DNA of 25,982 nucleotides. Source: a virus. Location of the stretch: positions 1 through 25,982 of the IMG/VR virus record IMGVR_UViG_3300000313_000012. One strand, written 5' to 3'. Below the pieces are notes generated by a model. That model was not told the origin of the DNA, searched no databases, and saw only the letters and a list, made by a program, of their open reading frames with translations. The first letter of the stretch is position 1; the number at the start of each line of letters is the position of its first letter. Below, piece after piece: positions 10,803 through 25,982 of this stretch. A program made the translations under genes and the position numbers.

Positions 10803-11039
10803 ATGCTGCGATTGAGTCCACCTCGATGGGATGAACAATCCATCCGCCTGTTTCGGATGGAGGTTTTCGACTTGCTTCCCCCTTTCGTCAGGGCCGCGAT
10901 CAACTTTGCGGCTTTCCCCCATGACCCGCTGATTGTTGAGCAGGTGATGCGGGAACAGCGTCTTTCAGACGTCGAGATGGCTCGTCGGATCATCGCCGCG
11001 GATGCGCGGCTAGTAGCAAAGGCAACCAACCATGTCTGA
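10803..11039 (+). CDS. 78-aa hypothetical protein
   Basis: A small helical protein beginning MLRLSPPRWDEQSIRLFRME. A central VFDLLPPFVRAAINFAAFPH segment is followed by QRLSDVEMARRIIAADARLV, which looks like two helices. No family is recognised. GGAGA is about seven bases before the ATG. It sits between the GcrA-like gene and the portal and overlaps the portal start by eight bases, so it is probably translated with it. A chance-open frame is unlikely because of this overlap and the ribosome site. Confidence 0.6.
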   Translation: MLRLSPPRWDEQSIRLFRMEVFDLLPPFVRAAINFAAFPHDPLIVEQVMREQRLSDVEMARRIIAADARLVAKATNHV

Positions 11040-13536
11040 TCGTGCGGCCAAGGGAGGTGGTACGTCAAAGCCGCTCGTGGACGTGGGCTTCACGTTCCCC
11101 AACGCTCAGTGGGCCGGCGGATACAGTGCAGGCATCACGCTCGGCACCGGTGCGGACTGGTTCGGCCCCCTCAACCCGCAGGCGCCGAGTGCGCCGCCAG
11201 AGGTCACCGGCCGTCGCTTCGACTATCCGTCTGGCTACAACCTCAACATCCTACCGCGCGCCTACGAGCCGATCCAGTTCTCTGACTTGCGCGCGATGGC
11301 GGATGGGTATGACGTGCTGCGCACGATCATCGAGACGCGCAAGGACCAGATGGCTGTGGGCCAGTGGTCGATCAAGCCTCGCCTCAAGCCCGACGGCACG
11401 CCTATGACTTCGCCCAACGATCCGATCATAACGGAGATCTCCGAGTTCTTCGAGATGCCGGACGGCGAGAACTTCTGGGACGCGTGGCTGCGGATGCTGC
11501 TCGAAGACCTTTTCGTCTGCGATGCGCCTTCGCTGTTCATCCAGCGCAATCGCGGCGGCAAGATGATCGCGCTGCCTCAGGTGGATGGCGCGACGATCAA
11601 GCGGGTGATCGATGACTGGGGCCGCACTCCTCTTCCTCCGGCGCCGGCGTATCAGCAGGACCTGCATGGTCTACCGGCGGTGAACTACACGACTGACGAC
11701 ATGATCTACCGCCCGCGCAACCAGCGCGTCCATAAGGTATATGGCTACAGCCCGGTCGAGCAGATCTTGATGACGGTGAACATTGCTCTCCGTCGTCAGG
11801 TGTTCTTGCTGCAGTACTACACCGAAGGCAACGTGCCGGAAGCGCTGATCGGTGCGCCTGACGGCTGGACGGTCAAGCAGATCGAAGAGTTCCAGCTGTG
11901 GTTTGATAGCGTGTTACAGGGCAACACGGCCAACCGGCGTCGCCTGCACTTCGTCCCCGGCGGCGTAGCTAAGCAGTTCCTCGACCTCAAGTCGGGAGCG
12001 TTGACGGATCAGACGGACGAGTGGCTGACGCGTATCTGCTGCTTCGCCTTCTCGATCAGCCCAACGCCTTTTATCAAGGCGATGAACCGAGCGACGGCGG
12101 ACTCGGTGAAGGAACAAGCGACCGAAGAGGGCCTTGCGCCCAATCAACGTTGGGTGAAGCAACTCGTCGACTTCATCATCCGCAAGGAGTGGTTCAAGGG
12201 GAAGTCACATACAGTCGAGTTCGCCTGGGAGATTGACGACGACGTTGACCCCAACTCCGAGATGGCCACGCTGACCGGCTATGTCAAGGCGGGTGTTCTT
12301 GCGGTCAACGAAGCTCGCAGCCGCCTAGGTGAAGACCCGACGCCGGGTGGCGACAAGCCCAAGGCACTGATCGGCACTGGCTGGGTTCCGCTCGACCCCG
12401 AGCAAGAAGCAAAGGAAATCCAGTTGAAGACGCCCGCGCAGTTGCGCGACCCGAACGCGCCGCCGAGCGACGGGTCGAAGTCTCCGCCGGGTAAGAAGCC
12501 TGACTCGAAGCAGGTCGAGTCTGCTGAAGGCGAAGGCGCCGACGATCAGGCCAATGCGGGTAGCGAGGACAGCAAGAAGCCGACGCAAGCTCCCGCTACG
12601 GGCAAGAAGGAGGTCGGCAAGTCCGCTGTCCCTTTTGGGAAAGGACTGCTGGCGTGCGACAACCCGCTGAGGAAGGCGAGTAAGAAGAGGATCATCGATC
12701 TTGACCCGGAGAGCTCCACGATACGGAAGCACCGGGCGGCGTTGGTGTCCCTGTGGAAGAAGCATCTCGCCACAGTGGGCAAGGACGTTGCACGCCAGGT
12801 GCGCGTCAAGCTCGATGAAGCTTCGAAAGCTGAGGCGCCTGACTCCGACCAGGTAAAGCGCGCTGCCGAGATTGCCAATGGCGTCGACTTGTCTGGCCTG
12901 TCCATCTTGATCGACCCCACGGCCGAAGAGCTAAAAGGTGCCGCTCAGGACGCTGCGGGACAGGTGATCGTCCAGTTCCAAGAGCTCGACCCCCACGATC
13001 TTTTCGAGCGGGTCAATGCTCGTGCCGCTGACTGGGCGTCAGAAAGGGCGGCTGAGCTTGTCGGGATGCGTGTTCTCGACGATGGGAGCGTGATCGAGAA
13101 CCCCAACGCCGATTACGCCATCACCGACAGCACGCGCGACAGGCTCAAGCAGATCATCGCTGATGGCCTGGCGAACGGTGACTCCAACGATGACATCACC
13201 GACGAGATTGAAGCCGAAGGCTTCGACTCGGACCGGGCCGAGCTTATCTCCTTCACCGAAATCTCGAGGGCGGTAGGACAAGGCGCGTTGGAGTCATACA
13301 AGGCTGCTGAGGAAGACGGCGTTGACGTGCAGAAGCAATGGCTCACTGCCGAGGACGATTTGGTAGACGAGGACATCTGCCAGCCGAACTCAGATCAGGG
13401 GCCAATCGACTTGGACGATCAATTCGACAGCGGAGACGACGCCCCGCCTGGGCACCCACGCTGCCGATGCCGGCTGGTTGGCGTAGTGGGTGGCCAGGAG
13501 GATGACAACGCAGTCGAAGATACGGGAGAAGATTGA
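11032..13536 (+). CDS. portal protein fused to MuF-like head morphogenesis domain
   Basis: An 834-aa protein. Residues about 60-460 look like a portal of the HK97/phage_portal type, with the pattern RAYEPIQFSDLRAMADGYDV and a long helical part (YSPVEQILMTVNIALRRQVF, FDSVLQGNTANRRRLHFVPG). A hydrophilic linker of about 90 residues follows, rich in Lys, Pro, Ser and Asp. The C-terminal segment resembles the SPP1 gp7/MuF domain: KQWLTAEDDLVDEDICQPNS (about 769-788), then PGHPRCRCRLV (about 806-816), with the final HPxCRC signature intact. Two usually separate genes appear joined. The start overlaps the 78-aa gene by eight bases. The portal would be the DNA entry ring and the MuF part an internal minor head protein. 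Confidence 0.85.
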   Translation: MSDRAAKGGGTSKPLVDVGFTFPNAQWAGGYSAGITLGTGADWFGPLNPQAPSAPPEVTGRRFDYPSGYNLNILPRAYEPIQFSDLRAMADGYDVLRTIIETRKDQMAVGQWSIKPRLKPDGTPMTSPNDPIITEISEFFEMPDGENFWDAWLRMLLEDLFVCDAPSLFIQRNRGGKMIALPQVDGATIKRVIDDWGRTPLPPAPAYQQDLHGLPAVNYTTDDMIYRPRNQRVHKVYGYSPVEQILMTVNIALRRQVFLLQYYTEGNVPEALIGAPDGWTVKQIEEFQLWFDSVLQGNTANRRRLHFVPGGVAKQFLDLKSGALTDQTDEWLTRICCFAFSISPTPFIKAMNRATADSVKEQATEEGLAPNQRWVKQLVDFIIRKEWFKGKSHTVEFAWEIDDDVDPNSEMATLTGYVKAGVLAVNEARSRLGEDPTPGGDKPKALIGTGWVPLDPEQEAKEIQLKTPAQLRDPNAPPSDGSKSPPGKKPDSKQVESAEGEGADDQANAGSEDSKKPTQAPATGKKEVGKSAVPFGKGLLACDNPLRKASKKRIIDLDPESSTIRKHRAALVSLWKKHLATVGKDVARQVRVKLDEASKAEAPDSDQVKRAAEIANGVDLSGLSILIDPTAEELKGAAQDAAGQVIVQFQELDPHDLFERVNARAADWASERAAELVGMRVLDDGSVIENPNADYAITDSTRDRLKQIIADGLANGDSNDDITDEIEAEGFDSDRAELISFTEISRAVGQGALESYKAAEEDGVDVQKQWLTAEDDLVDEDICQPNSDQGPIDLDDQFDSGDDAPPGHPRCRCRLVGVVGGQEDDNAVEDTGED

Positions 13537-15612: not shown

Positions 15613-17121
15613 ATGGACGCCAACACCATTGCCCAGACGCTCGCTGCGTTCCGGGCTGCCTACAAGTCCCCCATCGCCGACCCGCGACTGGGCGACATGC
15701 TGCAGAAGAGCACCTTCGGCCAGTCGAACTCGCCCACGTCGGGCCTCACGTTCTACGACCTCGAGCTTGGCGCGAAGTTCCTCTACCCCGTGCTCACCCC
15801 GCTGCGCAACTCGATCCCGCGTGTCTCGGGTAAGGGCGGCATCCAGGCCGCTTGGCGCGCGGTGACCGCGATCAACACCTCGGGTGTCCGCATCGGCGTC
15901 TCGGGCGGCAACCGCGGCGGCGTGATGGCTGTGGCGACGCAGGACTACACCGCGTCCTACAAGGGCATCGGCCTCGAGGACAACGTGGACTTCGAGGCGC
16001 AGTATGCCGGCATGGGCTTCGATGACGTGCGCGCCATCGCGGCCAAGACGCTGCTCGAGGCCACGATGATCGGGGAAGAGATCCTCATTCTCGGGGGCAA
16101 CTCGTCGGTCAACCTCGGCCAGGGCGGCACGCCGTCGCTGACCGCGAGCACGTCGGGCGGCACGCTCGCCACCCAGACCCTGTCCGTCATCGTCGCGCCT
16201 CTGTCGCTCGAGGGCTTCCTCAACGGCAGCGTCGCCGGCGGCGTCCAGGGCTCGATCACCCGCACCAACGCGGACAGTTCGAGCGACACCTTCGGCGGTG
16301 GCACCGGCAAGCTGTCGGCCAATGCCACGGTCAGCGTGACCGGCCCGACTGGTTCGGTCGCGGCAACCACCGCCGTCAAGACCGGCGCCGTCGGCTACGC
16401 CTGGTTCTGGGGCGCTGCTGGGTCCGAGGTTCTCGGGGCCATCACCACCATCAATTCGGTGGTCATCACGGCAACGGCGACCGGCACGCAGACTGCCGCT
16501 TCGCTGGGCACCGCGGACAACTCGGCCAACACCCTCGTCTTCGACGGCCTGCTGACCCAGTCCTTCAAGTCGGGCAGCAACGCCTATCTGGCCTCTCTGG
16601 CGACCGGCACCGCCGGCACGGGCACGCCGTTGACTTCCGACGGCGAAGGCGGCGTGGTGGAGATCGACACCATGCTGAAGTCCTTTTGGGACAACTATCG
16701 CCTGTCGCCGACGGACATCTGGGTGAACTCCCAGGAAGCGCTCAACATCTCGAAGAAGATCTTGGCCGGCGGCAGCTCGTCCAACCTGCGCTTCACCTCG
16801 GACATTCGCGACGGCATGATTGCCGGTGGTGTGATGGTGAAGGAATACCTGAACCGCTTCTCGATGGCGGGCGGTCAGGTGATCCCGATCCGCATCCACC
16901 CGAACATGCCGGCCGGCACGATCCTGGCCACGACGGGCAAGTTGCCCTACCCGCTGTCCAACGTGGCCAACGTGATGCAGATCCGCACTCGTCAGGACTA
17001 CTACCAGATCGAGTGGCCGATCCGCTCGCGTAAGTACGAGTATGGCGTGTATGCGGACGAGGTTCTGCAGCACTACTTCCCGCCGTCCATGGGGGTTATC
17101 ACCAACATCGGCAACGGCTGA
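15613..17121 (+). CDS. major capsid protein with inserted beta domain
   Basis: A 502-aa protein that I read as the HK97-fold major capsid protein. N-terminal and C-terminal parts are consistent with it: residues 20-165 (ADPRLGDMLQKSTFGQSNSP, then a long helix) and 345-500 (VEIDTMLKSFWDNYRLSPTD, GTILATTGKLPYPLSNVANV, QIEWPIRSRKYEYGVYADEV). Residues about 172-305 are Gly-, Thr-, Ser- and Ala-rich and beta-like, with VKTGAVGYAWFWGAAGSEVL at the core. This looks like an inserted domain exposed on the shell. Its ribosome site is poor: only an AGGGA about 14 bases before ATG 15613, following a pyrimidine-rich CCTCCAACCTCCAAC repeat. Expression may depend on something else upstream. Confidence 0.85.
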   Translation: MDANTIAQTLAAFRAAYKSPIADPRLGDMLQKSTFGQSNSPTSGLTFYDLELGAKFLYPVLTPLRNSIPRVSGKGGIQAAWRAVTAINTSGVRIGVSGGNRGGVMAVATQDYTASYKGIGLEDNVDFEAQYAGMGFDDVRAIAAKTLLEATMIGEEILILGGNSSVNLGQGGTPSLTASTSGGTLATQTLSVIVAPLSLEGFLNGSVAGGVQGSITRTNADSSSDTFGGGTGKLSANATVSVTGPTGSVAATTAVKTGAVGYAWFWGAAGSEVLGAITTINSVVITATATGTQTAASLGTADNSANTLVFDGLLTQSFKSGSNAYLASLATGTAGTGTPLTSDGEGGVVEIDTMLKSFWDNYRLSPTDIWVNSQEALNISKKILAGGSSSNLRFTSDIRDGMIAGGVMVKEYLNRFSMAGGQVIPIRIHPNMPAGTILATTGKLPYPLSNVANVMQIRTRQDYYQIEWPIRSRKYEYGVYADEVLQHYFPPSMGVITNIGNG

Positions 17122-17528: not shown

Positions 17529-18338
17529 ATGGCCGCAGGTGACCTGACGTCTCTGAGCAACGTCAAGGCTTGGCTCAGCGTCTCATCGTCCGGAGACGAC
17601 GCACTGCTCGGACGTCTGGTCACCTCGGCGTCTCGCTCGATCCTCAACTACATCGGTCGACCCAACCTGCTCGTCCATTCGGTGAACGAAGTGCGTAACG
17701 GCACGGGCACCGAGCGGATGATGATGCGCGAGTTCCCCGTTCTCGCCGTGTCATCTGTGTCTGTCAATGGGTCCGTCATTCCGGCGCAGCCCGTCAATCA
17801 GCCTTTGGCCGGCGGCTACATCTTCGACCCCTGGGACGGCCAGGACGCGTCGGGGCCACAGCGACTTCAGCTCATCGGCTACTCGTTCTACTGCGGATCG
17901 GGTAACGTCACGCTTCAGTATACCGCCGGGTTCCAGTCCGTCGAGGATGATGTAGTTCCGGTCGGAGCTACGCCCTCAATCGTTGTAGCGCGTCCGTGGG
18001 CCGGCGACGTGTCGGTGACCTATGCGACTGGTGCGGCGTTGACGCCTGTAGCCTCTGCGCCGGCTGTAGGGCAATATGCCGTGTCGGCCGGCACCTACGC
18101 CTTCAACACTGGCGACGGCGGACAATCGATCATCATCTCCTACAGCTACATCCCCGAGGACCTTGAGCAAGTGTGCAACGAGGTTGTCGGCGAGGCGTAT
18201 CGCCGCAAGGACCGCATCGGCCAGGCGAGCAAGTCGTTGGGTGGACAAGAGACTATCTCGTTCATCCAGACCAAGCTCAACGCGACGGCGCAGGCGATGC
18301 TCGACCCGTACCGCCTCGTCGCTCCCATTGGGAGGTGA
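17529..18338 (+). CDS. gp6-like head-tail connector with beta insertion
   Basis: A 269-aa protein. The start, MAAGDLTSLSNVKAWLSVSS and DDALLGRLVTSASRSILNYI, and the end, PEDLEQVCNEVVGEAYRRKD and IGQASKSLGGQETIS, fit the gp6-type head-tail connector. Typical members are shorter; here an added segment, residues about 138-208, is inserted between the halves. Part of it (167-207) resembles a segment of the tail tube protein, with about half of 41 residues the same. The connector ring docks the portal to the tail. ATG 17529 begins seven bases after the previous stop; AAGGGG lies about ten bases upstream, inside the end of the previous gene. The GTG at 18342 follows its stop directly. Confidence 0.75.
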   Translation: MAAGDLTSLSNVKAWLSVSSSGDDALLGRLVTSASRSILNYIGRPNLLVHSVNEVRNGTGTERMMMREFPVLAVSSVSVNGSVIPAQPVNQPLAGGYIFDPWDGQDASGPQRLQLIGYSFYCGSGNVTLQYTAGFQSVEDDVVPVGATPSIVVARPWAGDVSVTYATGAALTPVASAPAVGQYAVSAGTYAFNTGDGGQSIIISYSYIPEDLEQVCNEVVGEAYRRKDRIGQASKSLGGQETISFIQTKLNATAQAMLDPYRLVAPIGR

Positions 18339-18341
18339 CCT

Positions 18342-18833
18342 GTGGTTCAGTTCAGCGTTGCGCTTGTCGGTGATAAGGAACTCATCGGCAAGCTCGGCTT
18401 GGTTCCTGACCGCGTGCGCAAGTCTATTCGTGCGAAGGTGCGGGCCCTGGCCATCATGCTCGAGAACAAGGTCGCTTCGGAGAAGCTCACCGGCCAGGTG
18501 CTCAACGTGCGCACCGGCAACTTGCGTCGAAGCATCTTCAACGAGGTGACGGACGAGGGTGGCGCTATCCTCGGCATCGTCGGATCGTCAGGCGACGTTC
18601 GCTACGCCGCCATCCACGAGTTTGGGGGCAAGATCGACATCCCCGAGATTGTGCCTGTCAAGGCGCGTGTCCTCGCATGGGTGAGCGGGGGCAAGACAGT
18701 GTTCGCCATGCGCGCACGCGCACACACCGTGACAATGCCCGAGCGGTCCTTCTTGCGCAGTTCGCTTGCTGAAATGCGAGATGAGATCGTCGAGGGCCTG
18801 ACCGAGGCTGTAGCGGAGGGGATGAAGGAATGA
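18342..18833 (+). CDS. HK97 gp10-like / neck protein
   Basis: A 163-aa protein starting GTG 18342, with GGAGGTGA close upstream. The pattern VRKSIRAKVRALAIMLENKV then VRTGNLRRSIFNEV, an AAIHEFGGKI motif and a PERSFLRSSLAEMRDE helix match the HK97 gp10-like family, found as a neck or tail-completion protein. The H-x-F-GG pattern after a Tyr (YAAIHEFGG) is particularly typical. It joins the connector to the tail. The stop overlaps the ATG of the next gene. Length is within the family range. Confidence 0.8.
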   Translation: MVQFSVALVGDKELIGKLGLVPDRVRKSIRAKVRALAIMLENKVASEKLTGQVLNVRTGNLRRSIFNEVTDEGGAILGIVGSSGDVRYAAIHEFGGKIDIPEIVPVKARVLAWVSGGKTVFAMRARAHTVTMPERSFLRSSLAEMRDEIVEGLTEAVAEGMKE

Positions 18834-19288
18834 GCCCGGTTCCACCCATCGGGAGACCCACGCGCGAGCAGGTGATGCAAGCGCTCTTTCTTCATCTGCA
18901 AGCCATCGCGGACTTCAAGACGGCTGGTCGCAGGTTGAAGTTATGGGCCGACGTGCCGCCAGGTGACCAGCCCGCCATGTTCTTGGTCGATCATCACGAG
19001 AAGAGCACGCCACAGCCTCGTGGGTTGCCCAACAAGCTGCTGCTCCGTGCCAACGTCTTCATCTACTTCCAATCAGGCACAGACCAGACAGTGACGCCTG
19101 ACACTTTGCTCAACGGCTATCTGGACGCTCTCGATGTTGCGTTGGCCCCCGACAACGTGATGGACGGTGTCTTCAGTCTCGGGGGAATGGTAGACCACTG
19201 CTGGGTGGAAGGCGAGACGCTCAAGGACCCCGGCGATCTAGATGGTCAGGGACTCATCATCGTGCCGCTCAACATCCTACTGCCGTAG
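18830..19288 (+). CDS. tail terminator-like protein
   Basis: A 152-aa protein starting MSPVPPIGRPTREQVMQALF. The order helix, then RRLKLWADVPPGDQPAMFLV, a KLLLRANVFIYFQSG strand and a DTLLNGYLDALDVALAPDN helix fits the lambda gpU/tail-terminator fold, and the place just before the tail tube supports it. Tail terminators end tube growth and bind the neck. It overlaps the previous stop as ATGA. Sequence similarity within this family is weak in general, so the call rests on layout and order. Confidence 0.7.
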   Translation: MSPVPPIGRPTREQVMQALFLHLQAIADFKTAGRRLKLWADVPPGDQPAMFLVDHHEKSTPQPRGLPNKLLLRANVFIYFQSGTDQTVTPDTLLNGYLDALDVALAPDNVMDGVFSLGGMVDHCWVEGETLKDPGDLDGQGLIIVPLNILLP

Positions 19289-19329
19289 GGTGTCGCTGTT
19301 CCTCAACCTCTACAAGGAGACCACGTTCC

Positions 19330-20097
19330 ATGGCTATCTACACCTTCGGTTCCGGATACCTGTGGGGGGTGCGGACCGACATTGCGACTCCCACCCCGCG
19401 TCAGTTCGGGACGCTGCAGAGCGTCAGCATCGATTTCCAGTCCACGTCGAAGAACCTCTACGGCCAGAAGCAGTTCCCCGTCGCCGTCGGTCGCGGCACG
19501 GCGAAGCTGACCGGCAAGGCGAAGATGGGGCAGATCCAGGGCAGCGTCTTCGGGGACCTGTTCTTCAACACCACGCCGACGGCTGGCCGCGTCGTCGCGG
19601 TTCAAGGCGAGACGGCGACGATCCCGGCGACCGGCCCCTACACGATCACCGCGGCCAACGCAGGGCTTGCGGGGGTCAATTTCGTGGAGGACCTCGGCGT
19701 GGTCGACGCCACGACGGGCAACCCTTACACCGTGGTCGCATCGTCGCCGGCGACCGGGCAGTATACCCAGGCTGCTGGCACCTACACCTTCGCTGCCGCC
19801 GATGAGGGCAAGAAGGTGGCGCTGTCCTACCGATACAAGGACACGTTGACCGGCCAGACCATCACCTACACCAACCAGGACCTCGGCATTCAGCCGGTGT
19901 TCCAAGTCGTGCTGCGCGAACAGTTCCAGGCGCCGGGCGGCACGATGCAGGCGACGCTGACGCTCCACGCCGCAATCAGCGAGAAGCTGTCCATCGCGAC
20001 GAAGCAGGAGGACTTCGACATTCCGGAGTTCGACTTCTCGTGCTTCGCCGATGCGGCCGGCGTCGTCTTCGACTGGTCCTTCAGCGACGTCTCGTAA
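19330..20097 (+). CDS. major tail tube protein
   Basis: A 255-aa protein. The first part, MAIYTFGSGYLWGVRTDIAT and the VSIDFQSTSKNLYGQKQFPV stretch, is typical of siphovirus tube proteins of this kind, and AKLTGKAKMGQIQGSVFGDL is a conserved block. The segment DLGVVDATTGNPYTVVASSP to YTFAAADEGKKVALSYRYK (about 121-169) is a Gly-, Ala- and Thr-rich added domain, shared in part with the connector. AAGGAGACC precedes ATG 19330. The tube forms the channel through which DNA passes. It is followed by the chaperone pair, as usual. Confidence 0.8.
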   Translation: MAIYTFGSGYLWGVRTDIATPTPRQFGTLQSVSIDFQSTSKNLYGQKQFPVAVGRGTAKLTGKAKMGQIQGSVFGDLFFNTTPTAGRVVAVQGETATIPATGPYTITAANAGLAGVNFVEDLGVVDATTGNPYTVVASSPATGQYTQAAGTYTFAAADEGKKVALSYRYKDTLTGQTITYTNQDLGIQPVFQVVLREQFQAPGGTMQATLTLHAAISEKLSIATKQEDFDIPEFDFSCFADAAGVVFDWSFSDVS

Positions 20098-20107
20098 GGA
20101 GGACCTC

Positions 20108-20443
20108 ATGACCCAACCCAGCATCGTTGTCAAGATGGGCGAAGTCGAAGTTGTCTTCAAGCCCCTCAAGCTGAAGCAACTTCGGCTCGTTCTGCCGTTG
20201 CTCACCAAGATGCGCACGCTGCAGGCGACGGAGACCGAGTTCATCGATACGCTCGTGGAAATCCTGTCGCTGAGCGGCACGCGCACCGACGGCACACCCG
20301 TCACCGTCGAGGACATCATGGATATTCCCATGACTCTCGGCGAACTCGTGGACACCGTCCGACAGCTGTCGGTCATCAGCGGCCTCCGCGTCGAGGATAA
20401 GTCGACGGGGGAAGCAGCTCAGGAAGCGACGACGGCGAGCTAG
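20108..20443 (+). CDS. tail assembly chaperone, short form (G-like)
   Basis: A 111-aa protein starting at ATG 20108 behind AAGGAGGACCTC. MTQPSIVVKMGEVEVVFKPL and KLKQLRLVLPLLTKM are a typical opening for tail assembly chaperone proteins of the lambda gpG type: a small helical protein that binds the tape measure. The C-terminal EAAQEATTAS is a short tail ended by the TAG at 20441. The downstream frame encodes a second part reached by a -1 shift. It is probably made in excess over the fused form. Confidence 0.8.
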   Translation: MTQPSIVVKMGEVEVVFKPLKLKQLRLVLPLLTKMRTLQATETEFIDTLVEILSLSGTRTDGTPVTVEDIMDIPMTLGELVDTVRQLSVISGLRVEDKSTGEAAQEATTAS

Positions 20444-20691
20444 ACTTCGCCGAGCTCTACGGGCGGCTGGCCACGACCTGTGGCTACAGTTACCCAATGA
20501 TAGACGAGCTGACGCTTCCTGACGTTCACGAGCTATACTCATACTGGGAACGACATCCGCCGTTGCACGAGTTAGTAGCGCACTTCGTCGGGTTCAAACC
20601 TCCGCCGAAGAAGAAGGCCGGTCAGAAGACGCTAACGCCGGACTTCAAAGACTTCTATCGTGCGATGACGGGCAGCAACCTCCCGGTGTAA
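20108..20691 (+). CDS. frameshifted tail assembly chaperone (GT-like), join 20108..20410 and 20410..20691
   Basis: A -1 shift at GGGGGAA (20407-20413) joins 101 residues of the short form to 93 from the -1 frame, about 194 aa. The -1 frame opens at 20401 after a TAA at 20398 and runs to the TAA at 20689 as DGELDFAELYGRLATTCGYS, then MIDELTLPDVHELYSYWERH and FKPPPKKKAGQKTLTPDF. It has no ribosome site or start of its own before ATG 20497, and the 0-frame stop is at 20441. This arrangement is the hallmark of the G/GT chaperone pair. The extension should bind tail tube subunits. Confidence 0.8.
20407..20413 (+). other. programmed -1 frameshift site GGGGGAA
   Basis: The five G run lies in the only 43-base window where the 0 frame (stop TAG 20441-20443) and the -1 frame (open from 20401) overlap. 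Codons read ACG GGG GAA; a slip of one base lets GGG re-pair with GGG, and the next codon becomes GGA. I find no other slippery sequence in the window. No downstream hairpin was folded by hand. Confidence 0.75.
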
Positions 20692-24416: not shown

Positions 24417-25324
24417 TGGCAGTTCGTGTCTCTCAGTACTTCATTGAAGCAGCAGTCGGCGGGGGATACAGCCGTGTATCACAACAGGTCGGCGAGATAC
24501 TCGTCCAAGGCGTTGGACAACGTTCCTCTCAGCTTGTTGCTGAGGTCGCTGTTCAAGGGGTGGGCCATCGTGTATCTCAGCAAGTTGCAGAGGTCGCTGT
24601 CCAAGGCCGCGGAATACGCGTCTCGCAGTTTGTGCTCGAGGTTCTAAGAACGAATAGGGAGATACCCGTGCCCGCGATATACCCAACGCTGATCGGCCTG
24701 ACTTTCACCGTTATCAAGCGGCCGAAGTTCAGCACGGAGATCAGCTCGCACGTCAGCGGGCGCGAAGCACGCGTCGGCTACTACGCCAACCCCCTGTGGG
24801 AATTCGAGCTCTCCTATGACTTCATCCCGGACGCGCATCCCAACCTGCCCGGGTCATTCACCAGTGACCTTAAGCAACTCATGGGCTTCTTCCTCGCGCA
24901 TCAGGGGCAGCTCATTCCCTTCTGCTTCAAGGACCCAGACGACAATACGGTGACCGCTCAGCCCATCGGCACCGGTGATGGTACCACATCGTCTTTCACG
25001 CTCGTGAGGACCTTCGGTGGAAGTGACGGCACGAGCACTGAGCCGATTGGTTATGCTGATCTGTCGCAGACCTTCAACGTCTATCTGTCGGGTGTCTTGC
25101 AGTCTCCCAGTTCCTACACCGTCAACCAGACGATCATGGGACAGCAGACGCTGAACTTCCTCACATCGCCGGCGTCAGGCAAGGCTGTTGCGGTCGACAT
25201 GAGCTATTACTACGCCGTCCGCTTTGGCGAGGACACCAACGACTTCGAGAAGTTCGCCTACAAGCTATGGCAGCTCAAGAAAGTTCTCCTCCAGTCGATC
25301 CGGTCCGAAAATGCGCCAAGCTAG
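24416..25324 (+). CDS. DUF2460-like tail protein with N-terminal 16-aa repeats
   Basis: A 302-aa protein. Residues 4-80 hold five copies of a 16-aa unit with the pattern RVSQxVxEVxVQGxGx, starting at residues 4, 20, 36, 52 and 68. From about residue 85, YPTLIGLTFTVIKRPKFSTE, VGYYANPLWEFELSYDFIPD and a LKQLMGFFLAHQGQLIPFCF block match the DUF2460 family, which includes tail proteins of phages and gene transfer agents. The C-terminal half has TGDGTTSSFTLVRTF and a LNFLTSPASGKAVAVDMSYY strand pair. The likely place is the baseplate hub. ATG 24416 shares a base with the previous stop, as TGATG. Confidence 0.8.
   Translation: MAVRVSQYFIEAAVGGGYSRVSQQVGEILVQGVGQRSSQLVAEVAVQGVGHRVSQQVAEVAVQGRGIRVSQFVLEVLRTNREIPVPAIYPTLIGLTFTVIKRPKFSTEISSHVSGREARVGYYANPLWEFELSYDFIPDAHPNLPGSFTSDLKQLMGFFLAHQGQLIPFCFKDPDDNTVTAQPIGTGDGTTSSFTLVRTFGGSDGTSTEPIGYADLSQTFNVYLSGVLQSPSSYTVNQTIMGQQTLNFLTSPASGKAVAVDMSYYYAVRFGEDTNDFEKFAYKLWQLKKVLLQSIRSENAPS
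24425..24655 (+). repeat. five 48-bp tandem units within DUF2460 gene
   Basis: The five protein units correspond to DNA units of 48 bases. Middle copies (about 24473-24616) are the most alike at the DNA level, for example the GTATCTCAGCAAGTTGCAG and CCTCTCAGCTTGTTGCTG regions. The first and last are divergent. This supports expansion by tandem duplication, not chance. Confidence 0.75.
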
Positions 25325-25982
25325 TTCAGCCCTCATTTCTTTCCTCCTGAGCAAGCAGCCATGCTGGCTCGCGGACCTGTTCACCATCACCTTACTTGAT
25401 GGCACAGTGCTTCGGTGGACGAGCGCAGACCAGCCCATCACCTTTGGTCTGCACACCTGGGCGGCTCAAGGGCCAATGCTCCAACGGTCCAAGTGGAACA
25501 TGGTCAACACCATCCAGGTTCCTGAGCTCAACATCAACATGATGGCCGGCAACGACTCAACCTTCAACGTCGGCAGCTTGAACATCAAGCAGTATATGCA
25601 CAACGGCGGCTTCGACGGTGCAAGGCTGCAGCTCGAGCGCGCCGTCATGCCTGTGGCGTCAGGCTTTGGCAACACAACGCTTGGCACTGTCGTCATCTTC
25701 AACGGTCGAGTTAGCCAGACGAAGATCAACGCCGTCGGCGCAGAGATCACGGTTAAAGGCGATAACGTCCTCTTTAATCAGTACCTGCCACGCAATGTGT
25801 ATCAGACGAGCTGTCTGCATACGCTTTACGATGTAGGTTGCACCATCAACGCGGCATCGTTCACCTCTTCAGGAGCGGTCGACACAGGCTCCACAGCTCG
25901 AGTCGTCCTGTGGGCTACTCCCCCCGCCAACATCTCAAAGTACCAGCTTGGATATATCCGCTTCACGTCGGGAGCGGCGGCG
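25311..25982 (+). CDS. DUF2163/BR0599-like tail protein, partial
   Basis: The gene starts with ATG 25311, overlapping the previous gene's end by 14 bases, and runs off the right edge after 224 codons. It begins MRQASSALISFLLSKQPCWL and ADLFTITLLDGTVLRW, the DUF2163-type opening. Toward the edge NVYQTSCLHTLYDVGCTINA, then YQLGYIRFTSGA, looks like the BR0599-type segment with its conserved Cys pair. In gene transfer agents and related phages this protein follows the DUF2460 protein and forms part of the tail tip. The true length cannot be seen. Confidence 0.75.
   Translation, partial: MRQASSALISFLLSKQPCWLADLFTITLLDGTVLRWTSADQPITFGLHTWAAQGPMLQRSKWNMVNTIQVPELNINMMAGNDSTFNVGSLNIKQYMHNGGFDGARLQLERAVMPVASGFGNTTLGTVVIFNGRVSQTKINAVGAEITVKGDNVLFNQYLPRNVYQTSCLHTLYDVGCTINAASFTSSGAVDTGSTARVVLWATPPANISKYQLGYIRFTSGAAA

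Follow-up and report, generated by a model that had tools for sequence, protein, structure and literature searches.

The head-tail connector and the tail tube protein encoded in one stretch of viral DNA of 25,982 nucleotides (IMG/VR record IMGVR_UViG_3300000313_000012; hereafter the window) carry one homologous, self-contained beta domain, a conclusion supported by profile comparison and by the identical secondary structure predicted for a 41-residue segment of the two copies. We read this domain, which we call the module, as an independently folding beta-sandwich of the Ig-like type, ~75 residues long, that would have been transferred between virion genes long ago, inherited mostly with its host genes since then, and likely put to use as a brace of the rings; as a whole, we hold this reading to be somewhat better than an even bet. 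The genes and segments concerned are the following.

17529..18338, plus strand (ATG at 17529): head-tail connector/adaptor gene, gp6-like, 269 aa, recognized by Pfam, PHROG and predicted fold.
17934..18149, plus strand: connector copy of the module, residues ~136-207 (HMM E 5.6e-22).
18027..18149, plus strand: connector copy of the 41-residue segment, residues 167-207, 21/41 identical to the tube segment.
18830..19288, plus strand: tail terminator-like gene (phrog_8150, E 8e-25; weak match to the tail terminator family phrog_4204), with no module in the window's copy.
19330..20097, plus strand (ATG at 19330): tail tube gene, 255 aa (phrog_8234, E 7.6e-57; predicted fold).
19597..19836, plus strand: tube copy of the module, residues about 90-169, or 84-177 in the predicted model (HMM E 5.7e-29; DSSP).
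19714..19836, plus strand: tube copy of the 41-residue segment, residues 129-169, 21/41 identical to the connector segment.

The product of the first gene is a gp6-like head-tail connector/adaptor, by profile as well as by fold. It matched Phage_connect_1 of Pfam (PF05135, E 9.4e-10) and the head-tail adaptor families phrog_442 (E 1.6e-21) and phrog_132 of PHROGs, and its predicted model (mean pLDDT 95) resembled the head completion protein of T5/DT57C (Z 13.1) and the RcGTA adaptor (Z 11.0). The protein consists of N-terminal and C-terminal helices interrupted by two domains, its own beta (attachment) domain and the module, and its adaptor-profile matches are split in two (residues 3-145 and 208-266), with a match to phrog_8234 in between. 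The product of 19330..20097 is a siphophage tail tube protein, as seen from its fold and its gene order. Its predicted model (mean pLDDT 90) matched the tubes of SPR, YSD1, JBD30, lambda and R4C with Z in the range 10-15, best of all the SPR tail tube (8xkn; 228 residues aligned, Z 15.4), with Z 13.3 each for YSD1 and JBD30, these three alignments extending over the whole tube, and the gene lies between the terminator and tape measure genes, as fits a siphophage tail tube. Because this predicted structure matches siphophage tail tubes, phrog_8234, labelled 'unknown function' in PHROGs, can be named a tail tube family. Whole-protein sequence searches against the PDB returned no relatives, except for the helices of known connectors. 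The interval from the tube gene to the tape measure gene holds a pair of small ORFs (20108-20443 and 20497-20691), a position that usually encodes the frameshift-produced pair of tail assembly chaperones.

The preliminary description of the window had reported an ungapped match between connector residues 167-207 and tube residues 129-169, and both the residues and the count of identities were reproduced. BLASTP aligned the two proteins with E = 2e-9, and their BLOSUM62 local score of 114 was the highest among all pairs of the 14 window proteins, the runner-up scoring 69. The match described for this segment stands, but its limits were drawn too short: the profiles of connector copies and tube copies aligned over 74 columns (hhalign, 99.9% probability, E 4.7e-32), so that the segment makes up the C-terminal, better conserved portion of a domain of ~75 residues. 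We give almost no credence to the possibility that beta-rich segments resemble each other here by chance or composition, and rejected it. Secondary structure was predicted to be the same at 41/41 positions of the segment, yet generic beta patterns reach 33/41 in the best unrelated (off-diagonal) register, and this agreement is therefore support and not proof. What decided the question were the shuffled sequences, which scored 37.5 on average (sd 6.4, max 67, n=2000) against the observed 114, the segment profile, which matched none of 22,529 reversed ORFs, and the profile comparison with its E of 4.7e-32; in addition, 339/339 profile matches lie on the strand of the tail genes.

To find the module elsewhere, tube relatives were collected from viral contigs and a profile was made of their middle part. 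The module was present in 217/217 tube ORFs assigned by the body profile, the only tube matches without it being four short fragments (53-116 residues); it is apparently a constant part of the tube. The proposed check, whether the module hops among virion proteins of other phages, gave a divided answer: it occurs in at least four tail protein families beyond connector and tube, while recent hopping was not borne out (see the trees below). These hosts are a tail terminator (phrog_8150; L082 3812-4477), with the module near the N-terminus; a DUF2460 protein, with the module at its end (L003, L068); baseplate hub proteins of the Gp84_N family (L041, L158, L160, L162, L316); and a Phage-tail_3 tail-tip protein (L066, L103, L118, L150, L151, L183, L186), where L068, L103, L150, L160 and L162 were assigned because their size, position and module arrangement are like those of a relative that had been tested, and L186 solely by PHROG. 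The module sometimes comes as two tandem copies in such hosts. Single genomes can carry it in two or three different tail proteins, and the cultured Brevundimonas siphophages Strzyga and Polewnik (PMC10070969) have it in three proteins each, namely tube, connector and a DUF2460 protein. The window itself ends within a baseplate hub protein gene (Gp84_N; 25224-25982, truncated at the window end). As the hubs of relatives have the module in their C-terminal part, a third copy might sit in the missing end of this gene.

Bacterial genomes were surveyed as well, in two class-wide samples (299 and 289 genomes). The module was found in 10 of their genomes, mostly in phage tube, connector, hub or tip proteins. 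One match, however, falls in an exported chromosomal protein of 989 residues (E 1.9e-16; L319 5934-8900, also L310 826-3246) in genome G149 (class of Bryocella). This protein starts like a signal peptide, contains short YG-x-EGRR repeats and weakly matches B_lectin. No phage neighbours were seen beside its gene, and because the nearby ORFs look like housekeeping genes, the module is not confined to phages.

In the connector, the module is inserted between the last strand of the attachment domain (ending YTAGF) and the next helix (IPEDLEQ; P-x-D-L in the alignment). The insertion is clean, since 21 connectors lack the module at this site, most of them with two residues instead. Among the 46 loci that were fetched through the tube and had a recognizable connector, the connector module was present in 16 and absent from 30, and connectors have or lack it as a whole unit. 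This bears on another explanation, namely that the similarity reflects paralogy of the whole proteins, through a common tail-tube fold, or arose when the connector duplicated its attachment domain. Such an origin is conceivable, as the stopper, terminator, tube and distal proteins of RcGTA are of one fold (PMC7296036), but we consider it very improbable: the module is missing as a unit from many connectors, and tube body, attachment domain and module have no mutual profile similarity (<1% probability in each comparison), which also upholds the earlier claim that the two proteins are otherwise unrelated. The RcGTA attachment domain is the counterpart of the connector's own beta domain (~46-134) and not of the module, which is a further insertion behind it. 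An iterated profile did align the attachment domain with the module, but that profile had absorbed module-bearing sequences, and direct comparison of the two gave nothing; we discarded the duplication on this ground.

Three connectors (L251 862-2244, L276 4584-5768, L287 2722-3846) have nested modules, where a complete module lies in a loop of another and profile positions run 1-30, 1-72 and 33-72 in succession. The two copies, inner and outer, share 55-62% identity and are of the connector type. Other connectors carry additional material: an insert of ~235 residues at the module site with a weak Laminin_G_3 match (L043 1465-2739, E 0.047), a CBM_5_12-like stretch ahead of the module, also a weak match (L064 1869-2972, E 0.11), a stretch in the same place that by eye is similar to the latter (L063 1912-2937), and, elsewhere in the protein, an FN3-looking stretch of 100 residues with no Pfam match (L039 1009-2055). 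The lectin or CBM nature of these inserts is only suggestive.

To follow the history of the copies we examined trees of the module and of the connectors. In the tree of module copies, whose support values are low because the domain is short, connector copies lie apart from tube copies, and a single clade of all connector copies was not rejected (p-AU 0.96). Connector copies are more similar to one another than to the tube copy of the genome they come from, and that tube copy is no closer to the connector copy than tubes generally (mean rank 0.50 in 26 genomes that have both copies). Another view came from a connector tree that left the module out: there, a single clade of module-bearing connectors was rejected (p-AU 0.023) and the best tree required at least four changes by gain or loss. 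Because no single clade unites the module-bearing connectors, repeated gains or losses are indicated. Connector and tube copies are thus, as far as these trees can tell, separate old lineages of an old, occasionally transferred domain.

The match had been taken to imply a mobile or exchangeable surface module, and of this the unit shared by several virion parts holds, while recent mobility between connector and tube does not. We regard it as most unlikely that the two copies in the window were copied from one another by recombination as parts of an actively mobile module. The nested connector copies do indicate that duplication of the module inside a gene can occur, and the scattering of module-bearing connectors over the connector tree is in line with movement, but the nested copies are both of the connector type, the tube of the same genome is not favoured, all connector copies may form one clade, and the two segments of the window are identical at only 71/123 nt. 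The picture that the trees suggest instead is one of an old transfer, mainly vertical descent, recurrent gain and loss in connectors, and occasional duplication: all copies would go back to one domain that moved between virion genes long ago, after which the module would mostly have been inherited with its host gene.

The module is predicted to be all-beta, with 6-7 strands. Taken alone, the connector module aligned with residues 91-153 of the SPR tube (8xkn) with Z 4.8 and an rmsd of 2.5 over 60 residues, and gave weak matches to baseplate and neck proteins (Z about 6) and, more generally, to phage beta-sandwich domains (Z 5-6); since common beta arrangements also score at such low Z, these matches indicate no more than a similar arrangement. 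In the predicted tube model the module lies between a peripheral helix (71-77) and the next core strand (190-201). The same layout is found in the major tail protein of JBD30, with a helix at 77-83 and a decoration domain at residues 88-175 (PMC11445458), and in YSD1 (Chi), whose domain 2, an Ig-like sandwich, acts as a latch on the adjacent subunit (PMC7385642): in both, a beta-sandwich of similar size is inserted after the peripheral helix. From these solved relatives we infer the surface placement of the module. The JBD30 and YSD1 domains, however, have no detectable sequence similarity to it, a PDB sequence search with the module or tube profiles having given no link to the YSD1, SPR or JBD30 domains, and, unlike the module, they are not reported from the connector or other tail parts (PMC11445458, PMC7385642).

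We scanned 57 modules against Pfam with its curated cut-offs, and no family was matched above cut-off, including the Ig-like families (Big_2, FN3, I-set and others). The tube copy of the window scored below cut-off against DUF11 (E 0.0018, 19.0 bits against a cut-off of 24.6), and the best Ig-like matches of any module were Big_9 (E 0.033) and Fn3_arc (E 0.038). The analysis supports a promiscuous module, probably of the Ig-like type. As described by Fraser et al. (2006), in the account given in PMC8718954 and PMC9022992, domains of the Big_1, Big_2, I-set and FN3 families are promiscuous in phages. Like these, the module is an accessory domain, a probable beta-sandwich, occurs in several classes of virion proteins, is optional in some and is likely exposed. 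They are mostly C-terminal, whereas the module is inserted inside proteins, and unlike them it spans tube, connector, terminator, DUF2460 protein, hub and tail tip; two of its hosts, connector and terminator, are outside the five virion protein classes listed as hosts of Ig-like domains (PMC9022992). The adaptor of R4C, which has an Ig-like domain (PMC10276861), offers a further likeness, with an extra beta domain at the periphery of a dodecameric adaptor and outside the known Ig-like Pfam families. A description of the module in both connector and tube was not found in the open-licence literature searched. The module is a new, uncatalogued family of a kind of add-on domain known to be shared among virion proteins.

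Its role is most likely that of a peripheral brace around the tail rings, the predicted models being those of monomers and the contact between subunits presumed. In the tube, the module would branch off the ring after the helix, ahead of the next core strand, and rest on the neighbouring subunit, so that each hexamer may be braced from the outside as by YSD1 domain 2; in the connector, it could surround the dodecamer close to the capsid as a similar collar at its periphery. We favour bracing because the module is constitutive in the tube, is placed as in YSD1 and is more conserved than the tube body. The latter claim rests on tubes from full-length searches (module 45-57%, body 35-39%), as conservation among loci fetched with the module pattern is biased upward. 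Several findings count against a brace: the connector module is slightly less conserved than the connector body in the two cultured relatives (35% vs 42%), which fits a loose accessory better and, together with its optional presence, suggests an accessory role there; one copy is in the exported bacterial protein with the weak lectin match; and the isolated module gives a weak structural match, with no sequence link to the YSD1, SPR and JBD30 domains.

The main rival to bracing is glycan binding, according to which the module would be an Ig-like domain with weak affinity for glycans, exposed over the full length of the tail axis, that adds avidity for the cell surface, any bracing being incidental. 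We consider it possible but not probable. Ig-like domains of the Douge capsid and tube bind mycobacterial glycans (PMC13033339), other connector inserts are weakly lectin- or CBM-like, and the bacterial protein joins the module with a B_lectin match; these supporting Pfam matches, however, are below cut-off, the higher conservation of the tube module is unusual for a receptor-facing surface, and the connector adjoins the capsid, where the authors of the R4C study judged adsorption unlikely for the Ig-like domain of the adaptor (PMC10276861). The exposed face may also bind cell-surface glycans weakly, as a function added to bracing. Rather unlikely, in our view, is a continuous outer collar of neck and tail, in which the copies on connector, terminator, tube, hub and tip would recognize each other or the same surface; if so, successive rings would be coordinated or reinforced by a single interchangeable part.

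Beyond fold resemblance, the comparison provides direct sequence evidence for one accessory domain common to two parts of a single virion, connector and tube, and for the same domain in four further tail protein families. It also offers a profile of an accessory domain that is missing from Pfam and identifies phrog_8234 as a tail tube family. Connectors with and without the module are natural pairs for testing the function of such domains, and Strzyga and Polewnik, being cultured, are usable for experiments.

The major capsid candidate of the window (15613-17121, phrog_13692) contains a long Ser/Thr/Gly/Ala-rich stretch at residues ~190-310 that has no Pfam match and resembles a further inserted beta domain, and an 834-residue portal-MuF fusion (11032-13536) matches both Phage_portal and Phage_Mu_F (head morphogenesis) in a single protein.
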